This document shows positions 12,309 to 47,909 of a stretch of DNA of 64,000 nt, piece by piece (the stretch's first letter is position 1; every line of letters begins with the position of its first letter). The notes beneath the pieces were generated by a model that made no database searches, was not told where the DNA came from, and saw nothing but the letters and a program-made list of their open reading frames with translations. This DNA comes from Methanomethylovorans hollandica DSM 15978. Lineage in GTDB: Archaea; Halobacteriota; Methanosarcinia; Methanosarcinales; Methanosarcinaceae. The stretch spans positions 496,001-560,000 of the forward strand of contig NC_019977.1 of assembly GCF_000328665.1 (NCBI RefSeq). The letters are read 5' to 3'. A program made the position numbers and the translations under genes.

Positions 12309-12521
12309 CCAGTCCTCTTTACAAAAATGCCAATAGTAAATCTAGTACGCTTGTTTATTATTGTAATTATATCTAATCACTCTGGATTGTGGGATTTCAG
12401 ACGGTTTTTAAATAGCTCTTAACCTCCTACACTGATGTATGGCCCTCTATAGTTATCTTGGGATTGTATTATATTAGTTGGGGAACATAACCTTTTGTTA
12501 ATCTTACAATATTCTTCAAGT

Positions 12522-15328: not shown

Positions 15329-16264
15329 TTAGAACAATTTTTTTCTCAACATAACCACAGATAACACAACTGAGACCCACGTCGAGATCATGAAAATGAT
15401 TAGAAAAGCATGAGGATTATTTCCAAAGGGTACATCTACATTCATACCAAAAAAACTTGCGACCATCGTTGGAATTGATATAATTATTGTAATAGATGTT
15501 AGAAATTTCATAACCATATTTAGATTATTAGATATTACTGACGCATAAGCATCCATTGTTCCAGTTAAGATGTTACTATAAATATTAGCCATTTCGATAG
15601 CCTGCTTATTTTCGATAATGACATCTTCAAGTAATTCGATATCATCCGGGTACATCTTGATGAGATTGGCTTTATGGATCTTCTCAAGTACTATTTCATT
15701 GCCTTTTAATGATGTGGAGAAATAAACAAGGCTTTTTTCAAGTTCTAACAGCTGGATCAATTCTTCATTTTTTAGAGATTTGTGCAGCTTGCTCTCGATA
15801 ACATCACTTGTTTTGTCAATGTTTCTAAGATATTGGAGGTAATCCCTGGAGCTTCGGTATAGTATTTGTAGTAAGAAGCGTGTTTTTTTGGAGGTGTGGA
15901 ATGATTTGACTTTGTTCTCTAAAAATCTTGTTATGACGGAGTTTTCTCTAAGGGAGACAGTGACAACGTTGTCATTATTGATTATAACTCCAAGTGGAAT
16001 TGTATAATATATTCCTTTTTTTGATGTATCTTTGCTTGCAACAGGAATATCTATCAACACAACGGTACACTCTTCGTCCACTTCAATTCTGGCACGTTCC
16101 TCTTCATCCAAAGCAGCTTTAAGATGTTCAAGAGGAATTTTCAGATTTTCAGAAATAGTAGTAATTTCATCTTCAGTGGGATTTACAAGATTTATCCATG
16201 ATCCTTTTTCAACTTTATCGAGACTAATTATCTCATTTTCCATTGACTTGTAAATATTAAGCAT
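15329..16264 (-). CDS. corA: CorA-family Mg/Co/Ni transport protein
   Basis: 311 residues. A large soluble N-terminal funnel domain is followed by two C-terminal membrane helices, with the diagnostic GMN triplet at residues 273-275 after the first helix. CorA forms pentameric channels for Mg2+, and Co2+ or Ni2+ can pass. A GGAG ribosome-binding site lies upstream of the ATG at 16264. It converges on the P-type ATPase, so the cell has two magnesium routes side by side. Confidence 0.92.
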   Translation of the reverse strand: MLNIYKSMENEIISLDKVEKGSWINLVNPTEDEITTISENLKIPLEHLKAALDEEERARIEVDEECTVVLIDIPVASKDTSKKGIYYTIPLGVIINNDNVVTVSLRENSVITRFLENKVKSFHTSKKTRFLLQILYRSSRDYLQYLRNIDKTSDVIESKLHKSLKNEELIQLLELEKSLVYFSTSLKGNEIVLEKIHKANLIKMYPDDIELLEDVIIENKQAIEMANIYSNILTGTMDAYASVISNNLNMVMKFLTSITIIISIPTMVASFFGMNVDVPFGNNPHAFLIIFMISTWVSVVLSVVMLRKKLF

Positions 16265-16955: not shown

Positions 16956-17660
16956 TCATATAAGGAACAAGTGCATATATGCCCCTATAATAAAATTTAC
17001 CACCCACAAAATTAAAAGAATCTGCATGTTTGATTTCCTTTTCCAATTTCTTTTGAGTTTCCAATCTCGTCTATTGATCACAAATATAAATCCCATGATC
17101 AAAATCATGATTCCTATCAAGGAATGTATTAGAACCAGAGGAGAAACTGATTGAGAGACTATGCGGGTTCTTGTGAAATAGATCATATAAGGAACAGACA
17201 ATGCTACCAGCACATATGCTGATGTAGATATTATATCATGTTTTTTGAATTTCTCTTTTATTGACTTGCCTAGTAATAAGGAAAAAAACCCGATATTTAT
17301 AAGACACACAGCTATTATTTGTAAATCAAAAGAAATAGACATTAATTTGCCAGTGTTTATACCAAACATATTACTAGACGTGTTGCTGGAATTACCAAAT
17401 TCACTCCAATGAGCTGCAAAATACGCGATGGTCCAAACTAAAAGTATAAAATAAATCACATAAAGAAAAGTAGTGACTGGGCCATGAGATTCAGCTATCA
17501 CCCCACCAAAATCTTCTGCATGGGAATTTGCATCTTCCAGTGAGTAATGGTCCTGGTTCTTTGCACTCAGCCAGATCAATATTAAACTTGATAGCACGAC
17601 CAGGATGGTCAGCCATACAAAAGAATTCACGTAGGCTGCATATTCAATTGTGAAGCTCAT
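16956..17660 (-). CDS. Membrane protein of the oxidase cluster (CcoP-like N-terminus, DUF420/b561-like C-terminus)
   Basis: 234 residues with six to seven membrane helices. After a first helix the EDFGGVIAESHGPVTTF segment and second helix resemble the amino-terminal membrane anchor of CcoP. The C-terminal half resembles DUF420 or cytochrome-b561-like proteins, with histidines in LIHSLIG and GAYMHLFLI that could bind haem. It overlaps ccoS by four bases (ATGA), so it belongs to the oxidase operon. No CxxCH is present. A role as accessory subunit is an inference from position. Confidence 0.55.
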   Translation of the reverse strand: MSFTIEYAAYVNSFVWLTILVVLSSLILIWLSAKNQDHYSLEDANSHAEDFGGVIAESHGPVTTFLYVIYFILLVWTIAYFAAHWSEFGNSSNTSSNMFGINTGKLMSISFDLQIIAVCLINIGFFSLLLGKSIKEKFKKHDIISTSAYVLVALSVPYMIYFTRTRIVSQSVSPLVLIHSLIGIMILIMGFIFVINRRDWKLKRNWKRKSNMQILLILWVVNFIIGAYMHLFLI

Positions 17661-17842
17661 ATTTTCTCACCTTTCTGATTTAGATTATCTTCCGTTAACT
17701 GGCCAGGAAGCTCAATCATCCGGTATTTTGCTTCTTCGATATCTACGAATTGCCCTGTTTTGATTCCCCATATCAAAAAACCAAGAAAAATGAGGAATAA
17801 TAAAAATGCTGTAATGAACAGCGCTAAATTATACTCGTTCAT
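17657..17842 (-). CDS. ccoS: CcoS-like cbb3 oxidase assembly protein
   Basis: Sixty-one residues: one membrane helix (about 6-26) followed by WGIKTGQFVDIEEAKYRMIE, matching the short CcoS pattern of a helix, a W..xxGQFDD-like motif and an acidic tail. CcoS is required for cofactor insertion into cbb3 oxidases in bacteria. It lies five bases after the oxidase gene and overlaps the next by four bases. The match rests on pattern and context, since the protein is very short. Confidence 0.65.
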   Translation of the reverse strand: MNEYNLALFITAFLLFLIFLGFLIWGIKTGQFVDIEEAKYRMIELPGQLTEDNLNQKGEKI

Positions 17843-17847
17843 TCACT

Positions 17848-20712
17848 TCAACTCCTCATGTTTCTTGCAAAGTTATCCTTATAGAGTGGTCCCCACTTGG
17901 CATTATAGTCATCTGATGCGGAAAAGTTTTGGACATAGAAGATTGTCCTATATATCTCATCATCACTTAGAGAATACTTCCATGGAGGCATGTTCGTAGT
18001 TTCCACTCCTTCCCTTACTTTCCAGACATATTGCCCGTAGTATTCGAAATCACCTCCGGATTCTGTGAAATTAGCGGGCTCTGGATCAATGTATCCTCCT
18101 GGAGTCAGAATAGATGCAACACCATCTCCATGGCCCTTCTCACCATGGCACTGGGCGCAATACAGATTAAAGATATTTTGCCCCATCTCAAACTGATCAT
18201 GTGTTCCATTGATAGGCGGTAAGATGTTAGTCCGGTTAGAGAAGTCAATAGCCTCAGCATCTGAAATGTCACCACTTATTGTTCTTATTGAGCCCGATGC
18301 AAAGCTCAATTCGTAAAGATTTATCTTCCATATTTCGGTTTCGTTGACACTCAGCTTCCAGCTTGGCATTGCCGTACCTGGTACACCTTCACTCACTCTC
18401 CAGAAATGATAGGATTCACCTAGTTCCGGCATGTAGCTTAATATCCTTTCATGGAGATTAGCAGGCTGGGTCACAACATGTCTTGCATAAGGTCCCTGGG
18501 CATTTCCCGAACAACCATGGCAGGCCAGACAGCGTTGTGTATAGGCTTTCTTACCATCTTCAAAGATAGACCCAAACTCCACTCCTGTAGCTTCGTCTCC
18601 TGTATATGTCTGATTATCAAAACTATAATTTTGCGTTACAGCCGAGATGTAAGTAGTGTATGGCTGCTGTTTGTCCCGATACTCATACGGTACTTCAGGA
18701 TGGAATCCCATCACACTAAGATTATATGTTCCAAGGTTTTGAACATATGCAACCAGAGAATCGAGCTCTGTATCGGAAAGGAATCCGAAAGGAGGCATAA
18801 TTGAACTCGGGCTGGTTGTCCTTGCATCCCGGTCATGAAGATAATGCCATTCTGTAGGCCTCATACCTCCTATCTGTGAAAGATCTGGACCGGTACGCTC
18901 TGTTCCTAGTAAATGGGGGGAATCATAATAATAGTCACCTTGTTCGGAAACCCTTCCGATAGCCCAGTCTTGAGGTCTTACGAATTGTGAATGGCAATAG
19001 ACGCAACCCATTTCTTTGTACAACTCCCTACCGTGTGCCTCCTCTATTGTATAAGGATGTGCAAAGTCCGAAGGAGTCACAGTGTCCAGGTTAAGTGCTG
19101 GCATAGCAACGACCATCCAGGTCATCAGCATGAAAAGGCTCATTCCACCCACTACTATTATAGGCATGCTCATAGCATGCTGAGATCTTCTCTGGATATT
19201 TGAATGCGGCCTGGAACTTTTCTCATGAGATGTATGGAATCTCTCTTCTTCAACATGAGGCTCCTTTGATCTTGCAAAGGTCATCAGCGTATTGTATGCA
19301 AATACATATCCAGCCAACACAACCATTCCACCGCCCATAGCTCTGGCCACATACCAGAACTGCAGAAGTTTTAAAACAGGGGCAACTGTGATGTTCTGGT
19401 ACCAGGCAGAATTGGCCACAAGCCCTGCTATTGTCATAGCACTGAAGAACAGAATGAAGCCGATAAAAGCGAGCCACCAACTGAGACTCATTAGCCTGTT
19501 ACTGTATATTTTGGTCCTGGTTATTTTTGGTATCAGCCAGTACATCATTCCTATTGCCAGGAATCCAAAACCTCCAAGTATTGCCAGATGGGCATGTCCG
19601 ACCGGCCACTGGGAGAAGTGAAGGAAGGAATTAGTTCCCCTCAGTCCTTGGAAACTTCCCTGTATAGAAGTAAGAACATAAAAGATGAATCCTGTTACGA
19701 CGAACCTGAATGGGATATCCTTTGTGAAGTTATCCCAGGAACCCCGCAGCGTCATTCCGAGGTTGACCATGAATGTTATAACAGGCACTAACATCAAAAT
19801 GCTCATAACTACTGCAATTGTCTTTACCCACTCGGGTATTGGTGTTTGCAGCAGATGATGGCCTCCTACACCGGTATAGAAGAATGCAATGGTGAAGAAG
19901 CTAATCACCGAAAGAAGATGGCTGTACAGGGGCCTGTTTATCATGCGTGGCACTGCATAGTACCAGGTTGCTATTCCCAACGTAGTGAACCAGAGTCCCA
20001 GGACATTATGACCGTAGTACCAGTTGAATATCGAATCTGTTATGCCTTCCAAGGATCCCGAAGGAGGTCTCCACATGACATTGCCTATGAAATAGACTAT
20101 AGGGAACCAGATGAATGTGGCTGTGTAGTACCAGGTTGATACATAGAGTTTTTTCTCGACCCTTCGGCCAAGAGTGGATAGAATGTTGTACAGGATCAGT
20201 AGGAGTGTCAGCATTATTAGGACATCTACAGACCAGGGAAGTTCTGCATATTCCCTGCCTTGGGTATCGCCAAAGAACAAGATCAGTATTATTCCTGCCA
20301 GGAGGGCAAAGTTCCATAACACGGCAGAAAGCTTGGCCAACCTGGCATTATAGATGGGAGTATTGACAAGTCGTGGGATAGCCCAGAACATTCCGCCTAT
20401 CAGACCTGAAGAAACGAATCCAAAAAGCACACCGTTCACATGGGCAGGTCTTATCCGTCCAAATGTCAGAAAAGCAGCATCACTTAAAAAATATGGCTGG
20501 AAGAACTTAACGGCCAGTATAAAACCGAGAGTGGCAAATATAGGAAACCATATCAGTGACCCCAAAAACCAGTATTTAACAGCATCGTCACCTTCAATAA
20601 ACCTGTCGGCAATGTTTTCTTCTCTATTACTATTTACTTTAGTTTCATCTTGAGAAGACAATGCATCTTCTTTCTGTATACCGTCTTTATATACCACAAT
20701 ATACAACTCCAT
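17848..20712 (-). CDS. ccoNO: cbb3-type haem-copper oxidase, CcoN-CcoO-diheme cytochrome c fusion
   Basis: 954 residues. Residues 45-480 form a twelve-helix CcoN domain with every catalytic ligand: His91 and His375 for low-spin haem b, His373 for haem b3, and His235, His285 and His286 for CuB. Tyr279 lies six residues before the HH pair, the place of the crosslinked tyrosine of C-type oxidases, so it is an oxygen reductase rather than a nitric oxide reductase. A second anchor (about 515-540) leads into a CcoO-like domain with CVYCHSQFVRP (haem Cys570, Cys573, His574) and Met639. Two more cytochrome c domains follow (CLACH 728-732, CAQCH 852-856, with MPSW and MPPW), in place of a separate CcoP. 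One polypeptide thus carries two b haems, CuB and three c haems. Such an enzyme is not expected in a methanogen. Confidence 0.88.
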   Translation of the reverse strand: MELYIVVYKDGIQKEDALSSQDETKVNSNREENIADRFIEGDDAVKYWFLGSLIWFPIFATLGFILAVKFFQPYFLSDAAFLTFGRIRPAHVNGVLFGFVSSGLIGGMFWAIPRLVNTPIYNARLAKLSAVLWNFALLAGIILILFFGDTQGREYAELPWSVDVLIMLTLLLILYNILSTLGRRVEKKLYVSTWYYTATFIWFPIVYFIGNVMWRPPSGSLEGITDSIFNWYYGHNVLGLWFTTLGIATWYYAVPRMINRPLYSHLLSVISFFTIAFFYTGVGGHHLLQTPIPEWVKTIAVVMSILMLVPVITFMVNLGMTLRGSWDNFTKDIPFRFVVTGFIFYVLTSIQGSFQGLRGTNSFLHFSQWPVGHAHLAILGGFGFLAIGMMYWLIPKITRTKIYSNRLMSLSWWLAFIGFILFFSAMTIAGLVANSAWYQNITVAPVLKLLQFWYVARAMGGGMVVLAGYVFAYNTLMTFARSKEPHVEEERFHTSHEKSSRPHSNIQRRSQHAMSMPIIVVGGMSLFMLMTWMVVAMPALNLDTVTPSDFAHPYTIEEAHGRELYKEMGCVYCHSQFVRPQDWAIGRVSEQGDYYYDSPHLLGTERTGPDLSQIGGMRPTEWHYLHDRDARTTSPSSIMPPFGFLSDTELDSLVAYVQNLGTYNLSVMGFHPEVPYEYRDKQQPYTTYISAVTQNYSFDNQTYTGDEATGVEFGSIFEDGKKAYTQRCLACHGCSGNAQGPYARHVVTQPANLHERILSYMPELGESYHFWRVSEGVPGTAMPSWKLSVNETEIWKINLYELSFASGSIRTISGDISDAEAIDFSNRTNILPPINGTHDQFEMGQNIFNLYCAQCHGEKGHGDGVASILTPGGYIDPEPANFTESGGDFEYYGQYVWKVREGVETTNMPPWKYSLSDDEIYRTIFYVQNFSASDDYNAKWGPLYKDNFARNMRS

Positions 20713-21722: not shown

Positions 21723-22094
21723 ATGAAAAGAGAAGTAATTGTTTTCATACTTCTGATCAGTGCATTTCTGGCAATAGGATGCACTGGACAGCAGCCTACG
21801 GCTCCGACTAACGAGACACCTGCAACTCCATTTAACTCAACGACTGGGGGCAAGGTTATTGAAGTATCCATTCAGAATTTTGCTTTTGAACCCAAGTCGG
21901 TTAAAATCTCTGTTGGGGATACGGTCAAGTGGACAAACCTTGATTCAGTATCTCATACCATAAAAAGTACAGATTTCACATCTGAAGTGCTCAAAAATGG
22001 TGGTTCGTTCAGTCATACCTTTACCCAGGTTGGAACTTATGACTACGAATGCTCAATTCATCCATCAATGAAAGGAGTTGTCATTGTAGAATAA
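21723..22094 (+). CDS. Plastocyanin/amicyanin-like blue-copper lipoprotein
   Basis: 123 residues. The N-terminus has a short signal helix and a lipobox (LAIGC, Cys20), so it should be lipid-anchored outside the membrane. After a Thr/Pro-rich linker comes a single cupredoxin domain with the type 1 copper ligands His78 (VSHTI), Cys110 (YEC), His113 (IHP) and Met116. The short Cys-x2-His-x2-Met loop is amicyanin-like. Its position beside the cbb3 oxidase makes it a good candidate electron donor, though that is inference. Its 3' end is duplicated at 15086. Confidence 0.88.
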   Translation: MKREVIVFILLISAFLAIGCTGQQPTAPTNETPATPFNSTTGGKVIEVSIQNFAFEPKSVKISVGDTVKWTNLDSVSHTIKSTDFTSEVLKNGGSFSHTFTQVGTYDYECSIHPSMKGVVIVE

Positions 22095-42936: not shown

Positions 42937-44409
42937 TTATGTGTTATATATAAACTCCACAAAGCTTCTTGCAAACTCTTCATACGAACTTGCCACAAGA
43001 TGGGCATAGCAGCCCAGTGTGTTCTTTACTGTGAGTCCGTCCCAGCCTTCGATGATGCCTGTGCCCCGGGAGAGTTTGATGGCGAATTTGGCATCTTCGG
43101 GTAGTTCTGTGACTTCTGAGTGATGAAACTCATGGGCCCGAAAGTCGTTTCCGATTTTACCGATGACTGTATCCAGGGTTAGAGATCCGATGTTGTAGCT
43201 GACCACACGTTTATGTCCCATGAGGGTGTGTCCCGGGAGTGCACCCACCATGTCATAGGTGGATTCTGGCATCTCGGCCATGTGGTACGTACCTTTGTCT
43301 TTGACACCAGTCGTGAGCTTCTCAGTAAGGTACATCAGACCACCACATTCTCCGTAAATGGGCATTCCTGCCTCGGATGCTGCTTTCATATCTTCGCGCA
43401 TGGAGATATTTGCCTCAAGCTCCGCAGCGAACAGTTCCGGATAGCCGCCTCCAATATATATCCCATCCACATCCGGCAGGTGTTTGTCATGCACCGGACT
43501 GAAATACTGCAGTTTCGCCCCCGCAAGCTGCAGCAGTTCAAGATTATCATGATAATAGAAGTTGAAAGCCTCATCCAGGGCAATGCCGATTACTGGCTTT
43601 TGTGATATTTCTCTTCGGACAAAGATTGTATCCGAGGGTCTTGAAAGCGGAGCTGTCTGCCGCGCAATGTCCAGCACTTTGTCTATGTCCACACCTTCAA
43701 TGATCACATCACGGATAGTGTTTATCCTGGTATCAAAATCTGCTGACCTGCGGCGCTCTTCTATGGCAGGTACGAGTCCCAGGTGGCGCATAGAGATCAT
43801 CATCTCATTGTTACGGTGAATGATGCCTATCACCGGTACGCCGGTGTAGTGCTCGATGGCTTCCTTTGCCTTCATGGCATGCCTCTGGCCACCAATATTA
43901 TTCAGTATCACACCTGCAATGTTCACCTGCGGATCAAAGGCCTTGAAACCGGAAACAATAGCTGCAGCCGAACGGGTAATACTGCGGGCGTTCAGGACAA
44001 GGATGACCGCACAGTTGAGGATCTTTGCAATCTGTGCAGTGCTGCCAATGTCACTGTAGCTCTCCAGACCCTCATACAGCCCTCGCACACCCTCTATAAT
44101 GGCAATATCAGCCTCTCCATCCACTTCATATCCGTGCAGGAACACATCAAGTACTCTTTCCTCGTCCATGAGGTAACCATCGATGTTTCGCGCCCGGCGT
44201 CCGGTGATATCTGAATAATAACTGGGATCGATATAATCCAGGCCCACCTTGAACGGCTGTACCTTATAACCGGCCTTTGACAGAGCAGCCAGGAGGCCAA
44301 TGGTTACAGTGGTCTTACCGGAAGACGAACTTCCGGCAGAGATAAGCACTCTGGGAATATGCTTCCCCTCGCCTGATGCTGCAGGTTTTATGTGGGTGGA
44401 GGTGTTCAT
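42937..44409 (-). CDS. cfbB: Ni-sirohydrochlorin a,c-diamide synthase
   Basis: 490 residues. The N-terminal dethiobiotin-synthase-like ATPase domain has GSSSSGKTTVT (about residues 26-36). The C-terminal glutamine amidotransferase domain has the nucleophile in MPIYGECGGLMYLTEKL. It resembles CbiA, but the adjacent cfbC and cfbD make it CfbB, which amidates the a and c side chains of Ni-sirohydrochlorin with glutamine and ATP in F430 synthesis. It begins five bases after cfbC. CfbA, the nickel chelatase, is not in this window. Confidence 0.93.
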   Translation of the reverse strand: MNTSTHIKPAASGEGKHIPRVLISAGSSSSGKTTVTIGLLAALSKAGYKVQPFKVGLDYIDPSYYSDITGRRARNIDGYLMDEERVLDVFLHGYEVDGEADIAIIEGVRGLYEGLESYSDIGSTAQIAKILNCAVILVLNARSITRSAAAIVSGFKAFDPQVNIAGVILNNIGGQRHAMKAKEAIEHYTGVPVIGIIHRNNEMMISMRHLGLVPAIEERRRSADFDTRINTIRDVIIEGVDIDKVLDIARQTAPLSRPSDTIFVRREISQKPVIGIALDEAFNFYYHDNLELLQLAGAKLQYFSPVHDKHLPDVDGIYIGGGYPELFAAELEANISMREDMKAASEAGMPIYGECGGLMYLTEKLTTGVKDKGTYHMAEMPESTYDMVGALPGHTLMGHKRVVSYNIGSLTLDTVIGKIGNDFRAHEFHHSEVTELPEDAKFAIKLSRGTGIIEGWDGLTVKNTLGCYAHLVASSYEEFARSFVEFIYNT

Positions 44410-44414
44410 ACTGA

Positions 44415-45209
44415 TCAGCGTGTAAGTTCCCTTAATCTTTCATCTTCAAGTGACTTTGGCAGCGAAGAGTCTGCATTAGACATGATCGTCCTGGCAAGAT
44501 CGCGATATACTTGTGCGATATCAGATACAGGAGCTTTTTCAAGCACAGAGAAGCCATCCCTTTCACAGTCCTGTACGATCTGTTCCTTGGGAATGAAGGC
44601 TACGAGCTTGCTGCCTATCTCCTCAGCGAACCTGCTCACGATCTCTTCTTCTCTTGTAACGCTGCGGGAGTTGCAGATAACACCGCTAAGGCGCGTATCG
44701 ATCTTGCTGAGCCCCTTGCAGATATTGTTTGCAGCATACAGGGGCATGTATTCTCCTGATGTCAGTACGTAGGCATCGTTCACAAGCCCTTTCTTAATAG
44801 GGGCTACAAAGCCACCACATACGATATCTCCGGGCACGTCATAGATTATAAGGTCCATATCATCCATTTCCTTGCACATGTCCCGCAGTGTCTTGATGGC
44901 CACTATGATGCCACGTCCGGCACATCCTATGCCAGGCTCAGGACCACCGACCTCTACACATCTGACATTTCTGTACCCGTGGAAGACTATGTCCTCTTCC
45001 TTTACTTTTACTCCCTGCCTTAGCAGATCCAGGATGGTGGGTATCCTCCTGCCGCCCAGGAGAGTGATGGATGAATCGCTCTTGGGGTCACATCCGATGA
45101 TCATTACTTTGTATCCTTCCTCAGCGCATGCAGCAGCTACATTTGATGCAGTGCTTGATTTGCCTATGCCTCCCTTGCCATAAATGGCTATACGTTTCTG
45201 TTTTTTCAT
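44415..45209 (-). CDS. cfbC: Ni-sirohydrochlorin a,c-diamide reductive cyclase, NifH-like component
   Basis: 264 residues from the ATG at 45209 after a GAGGTAAG; an upstream TTG at 45227 is less likely. It is NifH/BchL-like, with Walker [11 protein letters not shown] and the two conserved cysteines of the bridging 4Fe-4S cluster (GCAGRGI and [13 protein letters not shown]). It hydrolyses ATP to pass electrons to CfbD for the six-electron reduction and lactam ring closure. It lies ten bases after cfbD. Confidence 0.94.
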
Positions 45210-45219
45210 GTATCTTACC

Positions 45220-46347
45220 TCAGACAAAACTTTCGTGCATTTCTTTTACCATTTCCCGCAATGTGGCACCCATTTCTGACTCCACTATATGCTTTACTCC
45301 CAGTGTCTTTGGATGGAGGTCTATCTCCACTACAACATGTCTGTGACCCATTTCCTTCAGAGGCAGCACCTGACGGGGACCATTTGTAACCGAAATGATC
45401 TCCATGTTGCTGATGTGGTCCATGGGTATAGCATGAGGAACACCGGTGATCACAGCAAAATCATAGTTTGCATATTTTTTAGCTATGAGTTCATCTACCA
45501 CATTGCCTGCAATGGGGTATTCGTCAAGGCCTCCTGTGATCTCATGCACTTGCACTCCTCTTTCCTTCAGATCATGCATAATATTACGGGCGTGGTCCCT
45601 GACCCTGGGCAGACCGAGTGACTCATCCAGGTTTGCCATGTTCACCACATTTGCAGCTACTCCCAGCTGGGATGCAACTTCATGTACGGCGACATTGATA
45701 TCAGCGAACATATAGCCGGTTTCCTTCTTTGCGTTCATGATCACAAGGCCTTTCTTACCTTCCTTGAGCAGCTCTATGATACGCTGTGCCACCTTGTACT
45801 TCAGATCCCCTCTTGAAGGGGCCAGGTATTCCTTGCTGGCGGCACCGTGGCGTTTTTCAACTTCCGTTGCCTCTTCCATGAGTACTTTCTGGCGCTCGAA
45901 TTCTTCCCTATCGATTACACCTATTTCCAGTGCTGATTCAAGTGTGATCAATACTCCTTTGGTATTATTTGCATATCCTGCATGCACTTCCACTTCTATA
46001 ACAGGTACTTCCAGATCTGCATCCATCACCGGTTCATGCAGTTCTTCTCCAATGATCATGCTGGCACATGTTCCAACTACGCCTATCAATTTAGGGTGGA
46101 ACATCTCATTGACCTTTTGCAGCACAGAGGAAAGCTCCCGGCGTCCCCCAAAAACAAAACCATTCTCGTCCAGGGCAGTGGTAACTACATGTATCCCGTC
46201 TTCTTCCAGAAGTCTTGCATGCTTAAAAGAGCATCCGGGAGGGCCATGCAATATGGCAACATCAACATTCAGGTCTCTCAGGGTGTACAATGCGGCAACT
46301 ATAGAACTCGGTCTGGGATGTATTATAGATATGTCATTCGCAGCCAT
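45220..46347 (-). CDS. cfbD: Ni-sirohydrochlorin a,c-diamide reductive cyclase, NifD-like component
   Basis: 375 residues from the ATG at 46347 (MAANDISII), which has a GGAG six bases upstream; an ATG at 46359 adds four residues. NifD-like fold with the cysteine in [14 protein letters not shown] and a second in [13 protein letters not shown] binding the catalytic 4Fe-4S cluster. With CfbC it makes 15,17-3-seco-F430 acid. It leads the transcript cfbD-cfbC-cfbB. Confidence 0.94.
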
Positions 46348-46359
46348 GCTATTCTCCAT

Positions 46360-46487
46360 GATGTCATATTATAGTTATGATATTTACTTCAAGAAGTATG
46401 ATTTTTTACACTTAACCAAATGCCGCTTTGCACATACTACAGCCTTCTGATATAAAAGGGCTATTTTATGTATCAAGCCCCATCTTT
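46360..46487 (-). promoter_or_regulatory. cfbD promoter region with perfect 14-bp palindrome
   Basis: Between cfbE and cfbD lies TACTTCAAGAAGTA at 46385-46398, a perfect palindrome. It is followed toward cfbD by a TATAATAT box (46366-46373). A TSS about 25 bases downstream of that box would fall at the cfbD ATG (46347), suggesting a leaderless message. The palindrome sits about 12-18 bases upstream of the TATA box, a usual site for an activator or BRE-blocking repressor. Confidence 0.5.
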
Positions 46488-47909
46488 TCAGCGGAAGCAC
46501 TTCACACACAGAGCAATAATAACTTTATCATCACTCTTTTTCCGGGCAAATTCCATTGCGCGTGTTTTTCCCATATCAAAGCTTTCAGCATAGTAGATAT
46601 TTCCAGTTGCCAGGGGCTTCATTCTTTCACCCACCAGTATCAGTTCATCCATGTCCTGCAGTCTGCTCCTGAGCATATCGGCAACATCCTCCGGTGGCAG
46701 TCCTTCGCATACCTGCGCAGCTTCTTCGCCAAGTACCATAATCACTTTCTGATTTCTTTTCAGGCACAAGCTCAGAGCTTTCTCTACTGAAAAGATGTCC
46801 ATTCCAGAGTTGGAGTTGTCCAGAATGGTTATGTCCTCTTGTATAATTTCCTGCATCCTGCCCTGCAAACCCCTGAAATTTTGTATTACTTCTTTCACAG
46901 TTTTCCATGGAATGTCTATCTCCTGGGCAGTGGCACACGATGCAGCAAAAGCTGTCCTGTATGACCATGCATCATATCCGGTATCAAGGCGGATCTTAAT
47001 TTCTTCTCCTGCGCATGCAATAGATAAACTGTTCTCGTGCATGCTTATCCTGTAGTCAGCATCCGAATTCAGGCCTTCACTTTTATCCGGGGTACTGAAA
47101 GTCCTTATGTGCTTCGACATAAGTGCTGGTTTGAGCTGCTGCGATATTCCCTTATAGTTATCATTCAGCACAAGGGGCACATCTTCGGGGTAACTCATGA
47201 GTGACTTTACCTTTGCTTCACTTGCCATGGATGTTTTGCCTGCGATCATATAATCCATGTCAAGGGTCGTGATTATACCAACACTTCCACATCCTGTGAC
47301 TCCAAGGGATATCTCGAATATGTATGCTTCTATCTCCTTGTTTAGTGATCCTGCAATGTCCATTGCCTGCAAAATACTCCCCGGAGCAATGCTTAGTCCT
47401 TTATGTAGCAATCGGCATACACCATCTTCCCACATCTCCAGTCCTCTGGAAGTGTGTAGCAAAACAGTAAGCTTCCTTGAGATCATGTCAGCAAGCAGGG
47501 AAGCAGTACTGGTCTTTGCCTTGGTGCCTGTGACCTCTATCATAAGCGTATGGTCACCAGTATCTTTAATATTCAGGATCTCTCCAACAGCTCTGTGATG
47601 AGATATTACGGGAATATGCTTCTCTTCTGCCTGCTGAAGCATAATATGATCGGGATAAAGGTGAACAGGGCTTATTATAAGGTCCAGATCCTCAACAGAG
47701 CAGTTCTTTTCTGACACCCGTATACCATCCATCTCCATAGAATTACATTGTTCGGGGGAGATCGTTCCATAAACATCTACCCCTGTTACATTGAAACCCA
47801 GCTCTTTGAGCCTATGTGCAATGATAATGCCGCCATGTGTCATATCGAGGACAGCTACACTCTTTACGGAGGGGTCAGAAAGGTAACGGTGCATAACCGG
47901 AAAAAGCAC
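46488..47909 (-). CDS. cfbE: Coenzyme F430 synthetase, Mur-ligase-like
   Basis: 473 residues in the Mur ligase fold: central ATPase with TGTKAKTSTASLLADMI and a C-terminal domain starting at ILDNSNSGMDIFSVEKAL. CfbE joins the carboxylate to close the final six-membered carbocyclic ring of F430 with ATP. It begins at a GTG (47909) or an ATG at 47894. It lies upstream of cfbD on the same strand, 128 bases away with its own promoter-like gap, so may be transcribed separately. Confidence 0.92.
   Translation of the reverse strand: MLFPVMHRYLSDPSVKSVAVLDMTHGGIIIAHRLKELGFNVTGVDVYGTISPEQCNSMEMDGIRVSEKNCSVEDLDLIISPVHLYPDHIMLQQAEEKHIPVISHHRAVGEILNIKDTGDHTLMIEVTGTKAKTSTASLLADMISRKLTVLLHTSRGLEMWEDGVCRLLHKGLSIAPGSILQAMDIAGSLNKEIEAYIFEISLGVTGCGSVGIITTLDMDYMIAGKTSMASEAKVKSLMSYPEDVPLVLNDNYKGISQQLKPALMSKHIRTFSTPDKSEGLNSDADYRISMHENSLSIACAGEEIKIRLDTGYDAWSYRTAFAASCATAQEIDIPWKTVKEVIQNFRGLQGRMQEIIQEDITILDNSNSGMDIFSVEKALSLCLKRNQKVIMVLGEEAAQVCEGLPPEDVADMLRSRLQDMDELILVGERMKPLATGNIYYAESFDMGKTRAMEFARKKSDDKVIIALCVKCFR

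Follow-up and report, generated by a model that had tools for sequence, protein, structure and literature searches.

A predicted CcoN-CcoO-CcoP fusion oxidase of the cbb3 family in the methanogen Methanomethylovorans hollandica

The operon and its products

Methanogens are textbook strict anaerobes. A 64,000-nucleotide stretch of the Methanomethylovorans hollandica DSM 15978 chromosome (NC_019977.1, positions 496,001 to 560,000; below, the window) contains three minus-strand genes, arranged head to tail at 20712..16956, which encode a 954-aa protein resembling a cbb3-type oxidase, a 61-aa CcoS/FixS protein, and a 234-aa membrane protein. According to the open reading frame coordinates, a 5-bp gap separates the oxidase gene from ccoS, which in turn overlaps the 234-aa gene by 4 bp, in agreement with the gene order described in an earlier note made from the sequence alone. 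The products are the following (coordinates refer to the window).

17848..20712, minus strand: CcoN-CcoO-CcoP fusion, 954 aa (Pfam, NCBIfam, PDB sequence match, alignments, fold)
17657..17842, minus strand: CcoS/FixS assembly protein, 61 aa (Pfam FixS 1.3e-8; position kept in archaeal and bacterial relatives)
16956..17660, minus strand: 234-aa membrane protein (residues 1-92 a conserved small subunit, CcoQ/CcoP-anchor-like; residues 93-234 an extra membrane domain)

In the fusion, a CcoN domain (residues ~40-490) is followed by the transmembrane and monohaem domain of CcoO (~510-660) and two CcoP-like cytochrome c domains (~710-940). Pfam reports COX1 (2.8e-83), FixO (1e-31), and two Cytochrome_CBB3 stretches, while the PDB sequence search matches residues 45-483 to Pseudomonas stutzeri CcoN (3mk7_A, E 1.1e-67) and residues 521-652 to CcoO of the same structure (3mk7_B, E 1.3e-21). 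CxxCH motifs are found at residues 570, 728, and 852, with an invariant Met-Pro downstream of each (639, 782, and 908, respectively). As judged from these matches, the protein unites CcoN and CcoO with the dihaem portion of CcoP in a single chain; the FixO match, the two CBB3 stretches, and the three CxxCH motifs bear out the earlier statement that CcoO and two further cytochrome c domains share one polypeptide. The operon contains no gene for a CuA subunit, and electrons would instead enter through the monohaem CcoO and dihaem CcoP domains. Given a basic linker and, after it, a helix at ~515-539, the domains that bind haem c would be expected to lie on the outer side of the membrane, the arrangement known from CcoO.

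As for the 234-aa protein, its small module is in relatives a separate gene of ~74-100 aa directly after CcoS, and FixP_N, the membrane anchor of CcoP, weakly matches the small-subunit homologue of one such locus (L032, 1.9e-4). For these two reasons the CcoP anchor appears to have moved from CcoP onto the small subunit. The extra membrane domain of 142 residues (window 16956-17384) is fused to the small oxidase subunit in the window copy alone. None of the loci compared contains a relative of this C-terminal half, and Pfam and NCBIfam report at most a sub-threshold DUF2232 match (1.5e-4) for it.

Catalytic residues and family placement

Residue numbers were obtained by aligning the window protein to CcoN of P. 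stutzeri (3mk7) and Rhodobacter capsulatus. The sites below were located by this alignment (P. stutzeri positions in brackets), and those of haem c from the sequence.

20440..20442, minus strand: His91, haem b ligand (H60)
20242..20253, minus strand: Glu154-Tyr-Ala-Glu157, Ca-site glutamate pair (E122/E125), invariant
20008..20010, minus strand: His235, CuB ligand (H207)
19876..19878, minus strand: Tyr279, catalytic His-crosslinkable tyrosine (Y251)
19855..19860, minus strand: His285-His286, CuB ligands (H257/H258)
19660..19662, minus strand: Gln351 replacing canonical Glu323, Gln throughout the subclade
19588..19596, minus strand: His373-Ala-His375, haem b3 and haem b ligands (H345/H347)
18991..19005, minus strand: CVYCH haem c site, CcoO domain
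18517..18531, minus strand: CLACH haem c site, first CcoP-like domain
18145..18159, minus strand: CAQCH haem c site, second CcoP-like domain

All six haem and CuB histidines are kept (H91, H235, H285, H286, H373, and H375), and Tyr279 stands exactly six residues ahead of the HH pair. The 3mk7 alignment thus confirms the 954-residue fusion with six catalytic histidines and a tyrosine six residues before HH that had been read from the letters. The tyrosine is present in every subclade row and absent from nitric oxide reductases (NORs), and every catalytic ligand together with the tyrosine is conserved in 35 of the 35 subclade-type rows examined. The three positions of the putative K-path that were compared, T215, S240, and Y251, are kept as well (T215 corresponds to T243). 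At the level of sequence, this anatomy supports a working O2 reductase.

Structure comparison gives a similar picture. For the CcoN domain alone, AlphaFold2 (AF2; 31 sequences) yields a model with pLDDT 87.5 and pTM 0.90. CcoN structures take the first seven places among its PDB matches (TM ~0.9; 3mk7, 6xkw, 8smr, and 9g6b are among them), with NOR next and A/B-type oxidases after it. The full-length model (18 sequences) is weak, with pLDDT 62, and has the same best PDB matches as the domain.

In the maximum-likelihood tree, the 40 rows of the C clade are set apart from NOR, qNOR, and A/B rows with support 92/92; several outgroup branches are long, which makes the deep splits less secure than the position of the window protein. 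This protein joins the characterised CcoN proteins (3mk7, 6xkw) outside the NORs, and the earlier assignment to the cbb3 type rather than to the NORs holds in this respect. NOR-group proteins, including those of Methanoperedens, have no tyrosine, and at the T215 position most of them show Glu, while the window protein has T243 (no Glu) and Y279. cNOR and qNOR share with it the superfamily fold and the histidines; membership of the NORs, however, was ruled out by the absent Glu, the tyrosine, and the separate position in the tree. Within the C clade, five Methanosarcinaceae form one clade (100/100) next to one Methanoperedens and one ANME-2 copy; the fused bacterial proteins form the sister group (100/99), and nine other Methanoperedenaceae copies fall outside. 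The archaeal copies are thus split in the tree, which calls for one or more transfers between archaea and bacteria.

According to profile scores, the protein does not reach the canonical CcoN equivalog TIGR00780 (279 bits against a cut-off of 583), and its best NCBIfam match, the CcoNO fusion subfamily NF011053 (PRK14485), scores 442 bits, far under the cut-off of 1080. On the evidence of ligands, fold, and tree, we regard the window protein as very probably a C-family (cbb3-type) O2 reductase, and the scores mark it as a divergent member of that family rather than a canonical CcoN equivalog. With canonical proteobacterial cbb3 (P. stutzeri 3mk7, R. capsulatus 6xkw) it has in common the CcoN fold, the six histidines, the catalytic tyrosine, the Ca-site glutamates, the CcoO and dihaem CcoP domains, and ccoS. 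It differs in having only ~30% identity, three subunits in one chain, Gln for Glu323, and the CcoP anchor on a separate small protein. The PRK14485 subfamily shares the CcoN-CcoO fusion, to which the window protein adds two CcoP haem domains.

A Gln at the Glu323 position is also observed in CcoN of the Paracoccus aminovorans plasmid p_IV (L081), a long branch beside canonical CcoN.

Distribution and conservation

Among 186 Methanosarcinales genomes searched with the COX1 profile, the CcoNOP fusion occurs in the host, in four genomes of Methanolobus, and, among methane-oxidising archaea, in about a dozen of Methanoperedenaceae and one of ANME-2. For the Methanosarcinaceae this amounts to 5 of 112 genomes. 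When 393 evenly sampled genomes of the phylum were searched for FixO, only the five Methanosarcinaceae came up, the Methanoperedenaceae carriers probably not having been drawn. The Methanolobus carriers, which belong to the same family as the host, include Methanolobus vulcani PL 12/M and Methanolobus sp. Soudan_27, and their operon copies are 82-84% identical to that of the window.

Among bacteria, a GTDB scan for further relatives reveals the full fusion in Syntrophaceae UBA6252, Desulfosporosinus sp. BG, Clostridiales AS27, and two metagenome-assembled genomes (MAGs) of Actinomycetota, and an unfused CcoN with a separate pentahaem CcoO-P protein in Anaerolineae and Actinomycetota. MAG-derived rows could be misbinned; those of M. 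vulcani and Desulfosporosinus sp. BG carry no MAG label. The bacterial CcoNOP proteins, most of them from anaerobes, have the same fusion, three CxxCH motifs, and the same downstream FixS and small subunit, but are 54-62% identical to the window protein and have other flanking genes (ResB in AS27). No characterised example of them was found in the searches made.

FixS and the small subunit are kept in the same order in archaea and several bacterial phyla, and 16 archaeal relatives, the window protein included, align end to end. Between the window and Methanolobus, dN equals 0.09-0.11 and dS 1.4-1.7, giving dN/dS of 0.06-0.07, and within Methanolobus the ratio is 0.05-0.08; dS values above 1 are near saturation, but less diverged pairs (dS 0.5-0.6) yield agreeing ratios. 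Judging by these ratios, the oxidase is under strong purifying selection, with its function maintained.

Haem-copper oxidase genes in a few methanogens have already been tabulated, and the enzyme class is well known. For 132 Methanosarcinales genomes, Table 4 of Johnson et al. 2021 (PMC8351635) gives a single one with Cbb3. A survey from 2025 (PMC7618691) reports haem-copper oxidase hits for four strains of Methanomicrobia and a single Methanonatronarchaeia strain, accepts three Methanosarcinales as possible, and states that there are no reports on their expression or function. As for Methanoperedens, no description of a cbb3-type enzyme in this archaeon was found in those papers examined among the ones naming both. 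Within the literature covered, in which subscription papers are few, the new elements are the fused architecture and operon, the ligands, the family placement, the distribution, the selection, and the electron-supply context.

Electron supply and possible roles

The host encodes a haem B synthase, AhbD (624 bits, cut-off 500), beside CcmE and other tetrapyrrole genes. A gene for a 532-aa multihaem cytochrome lies ahead of rnfC and scores 655 bits (cut-off 250) against TIGR04314, a family of multihaem cytochromes from methanogens; from position and family it is equated with MmcA, for which electron exchange with methanophenazine and with acceptors outside the cell is described in Methanosarcina acetivorans (PMC11024163). 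No cytochrome bd is present in the host genome. The bd-like terminal oxidase that the earlier note named for some Methanosarcina is correct for other species and not for this one. Cytochrome bd of Methanosarcina shares with the fusion a presumed O2-scavenging role and is an unrelated protein. A further possible donor lies 1 kb upstream of the oxidase and has no homologue in the other oxidase loci compared:

21723..22094, plus strand: cupredoxin, exported, lipoprotein-like, possible electron carrier (Copper-bind 1.1e-11, amicyanin-like)

Because the host has neither cytochrome bd nor a bc1-type cytochrome b, the donor would most simply be MmcA, small single-haem cytochromes, or the cupredoxin.

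Single-haem cytochromes were observed divergently upstream of the oxidase in two Methanolobus (L023 7701-8297 and L026 7256-7795), the L026 copy having a PGF-CTERM surface anchor, and two homologues occur in the host genome (C2:1235541 and C2:1086046).

In the favoured scheme, the single polypeptide of CcoN, CcoO, and the dihaem CcoP part would be assembled with CcoS and the small membrane subunit. Electrons would enter the three extracytoplasmic c haems, most likely from Rnf-linked MmcA and/or from the methanophenazine pool via small c-type cytochromes or the nearby cupredoxin, and pass through haem b to haem b3-CuB, where O2 would be reduced to water with protons arriving by a K-channel-like path. 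The main role would probably be high-affinity electrogenic O2 removal, shielding methanogenesis during brief or trace O2 exposure. We infer the O2 reductase activity, donor, proton pumping, and protective role alike from sequence, and consider O2 scavenging with these donors reasonably likely. It is favoured over respiratory growth because the oxidase occurs in anaerobes and the host has no bc1 complex; anaerobic bacterial carriers such as Desulfosporosinus and Syntrophaceae fit scavenging too. As a precedent, Desulfovibrio vulgaris, itself an obligate anaerobe, has oxygen reductases in its membrane (PMC4383621).

Several observations count against this scheme. The host genome has no bc1-type cytochrome b, though Methanoperedens has one, and the path by which methanophenazine would feed the c haems is accordingly a proposed one. 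The distribution is patchy, with the fusion in 1 of 6 genomes of the host genus and 4 of 27 Methanolobus, which makes the oxidase dispensable. No ccoGHI lies beside the oxidase in the window, where no search aimed at CcoG/H/I was made. Finally, at the Glu323 position, adjacent to haem b3, all archaeal and bacterial subclade members have Gln, whereas canonical CcoN rows have Glu.

A true respiratory oxidase would pass electrons from methyl groups oxidised to CO2 on to O2 at nanomolar concentrations, with the energy supporting growth. Proton pumping by the C family is established, and the protein keeps the catalytic tyrosine together with the K-path positions T215 and S240; in M. acetivorans, MmcA supports an electron export that resembles respiration (PMC11024163 and PMC6703419). 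In addition, the operon is closely followed in 4 of 4 Methanolobus genomes by the gene of a P-type ATPase, the tested copy belonging to the proton-efflux type, which sets the operon there in a bioenergetic context. The host, however, lacks a bc1 complex, methanogenesis enzymes are O2-sensitive, and mcrA is retained, so that we regard respiratory growth as unlikely. The proposition that some cultured methanogens conserve energy by micro-aerobic respiration, with the fused oxidase, an Rnf-MmcA/methanophenazine chain, and O2 as terminal acceptor, is likewise considered unlikely. To our knowledge, growth by O2 respiration has not been reported for any methanogen.

Nitric oxide as the main substrate, with detoxification as the role, seems improbable. 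It is generally known that cbb3 oxidases turn over NO slowly, and the Methanoperedens carriers live with nitrogen oxides and also hold NOR-group enzymes. Nevertheless, the absence of the NOR Glu at the T215 position and the presence of Y251 are the reverse of NOR-group rows, the tree excludes NORs, and several Methanoperedens genomes have dedicated NOR-group enzymes beside the oxidase.

Still less plausible is a recently acquired gene that is unused or decaying, a reading raised for haem-copper oxidase hits in methanogens by the 2025 survey (PMC7618691) and consistent with the patchy distribution; full-length copies contain no stops, the haem sites are invariant, dN/dS stays at 0.05-0.08 over substantial divergence, and the accessory genes are kept in order. 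An assembly chimera or contamination, for which no supporting point was found, can practically be dismissed: the window lies on a 2,428,904-bp contig (chromosome) of a 2,714,013-bp genome (completeness 99.99%, contamination 0.31%), the contig carries mcrA and two archaeal 16S genes, the window itself archaeal RNase P and cfbBCDE, and the same operon occurs on 2.8- and 3.2-Mb contigs of two Methanolobus genomes, in line with a genuine methanogen chromosome and against the chimera that the earlier note had named as a refutation.

O2 scavenging would carry wider meaning. Methanogenesis in oxygenated sediment has been reported and ascribed to aerotolerant Methanosarcinaceae (PMC12422968), for which a high-affinity O2 reductase that cultured methylotrophic methanogens have conserved would, if true, be a testable mechanism. 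The fused form, common to Methanosarcinales, Desulfosporosinus, Syntrophaceae, and Actinomycetota, is also relevant to the timing and manner in which anaerobes came to share C-family oxidases. It represents a variant of an enzyme already known, in a host that can be cultured and in which it was not expected.

As for the surroundings, the F430 genes cfbB/C/D/E lie at window 42937-47909, ~22 kb from the oxidase; the earlier description of the oxidase as beside them is wrong, and a link with them is not supported. Metal transporters are nearer (CorA at 15329 and a Mg-type P-ATPase at 12495). In the compared loci, the operon has no conserved neighbours besides FixS and the small subunit. A CbbQ/NirQ/NorQ-like AAA ATPase, weighed as a sign of FeB insertion, is found near the oxidase in three Methanolobus (L023 10099-10929, L024 5342-6172, and L025 1-359) and has no homologue in the window. 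The P-type ATPase gene directly after the Methanolobus operons is located at L023 1693-4140, L024 10055-12502, L025 9513-11960, and L026 1193-3715, with the L023 copy over the cut-off of the proton-efflux type TIGR01647. Methanoperedens genomes (L038-L042) have extra NOR-group haem-copper enzymes in addition to the cbb3-type fusion, one of them a qNOR (L041). A congener of the host (G142) has cytochrome bd and no cbb3, and two Methanolobus (G120 and G136) have both oxidases.

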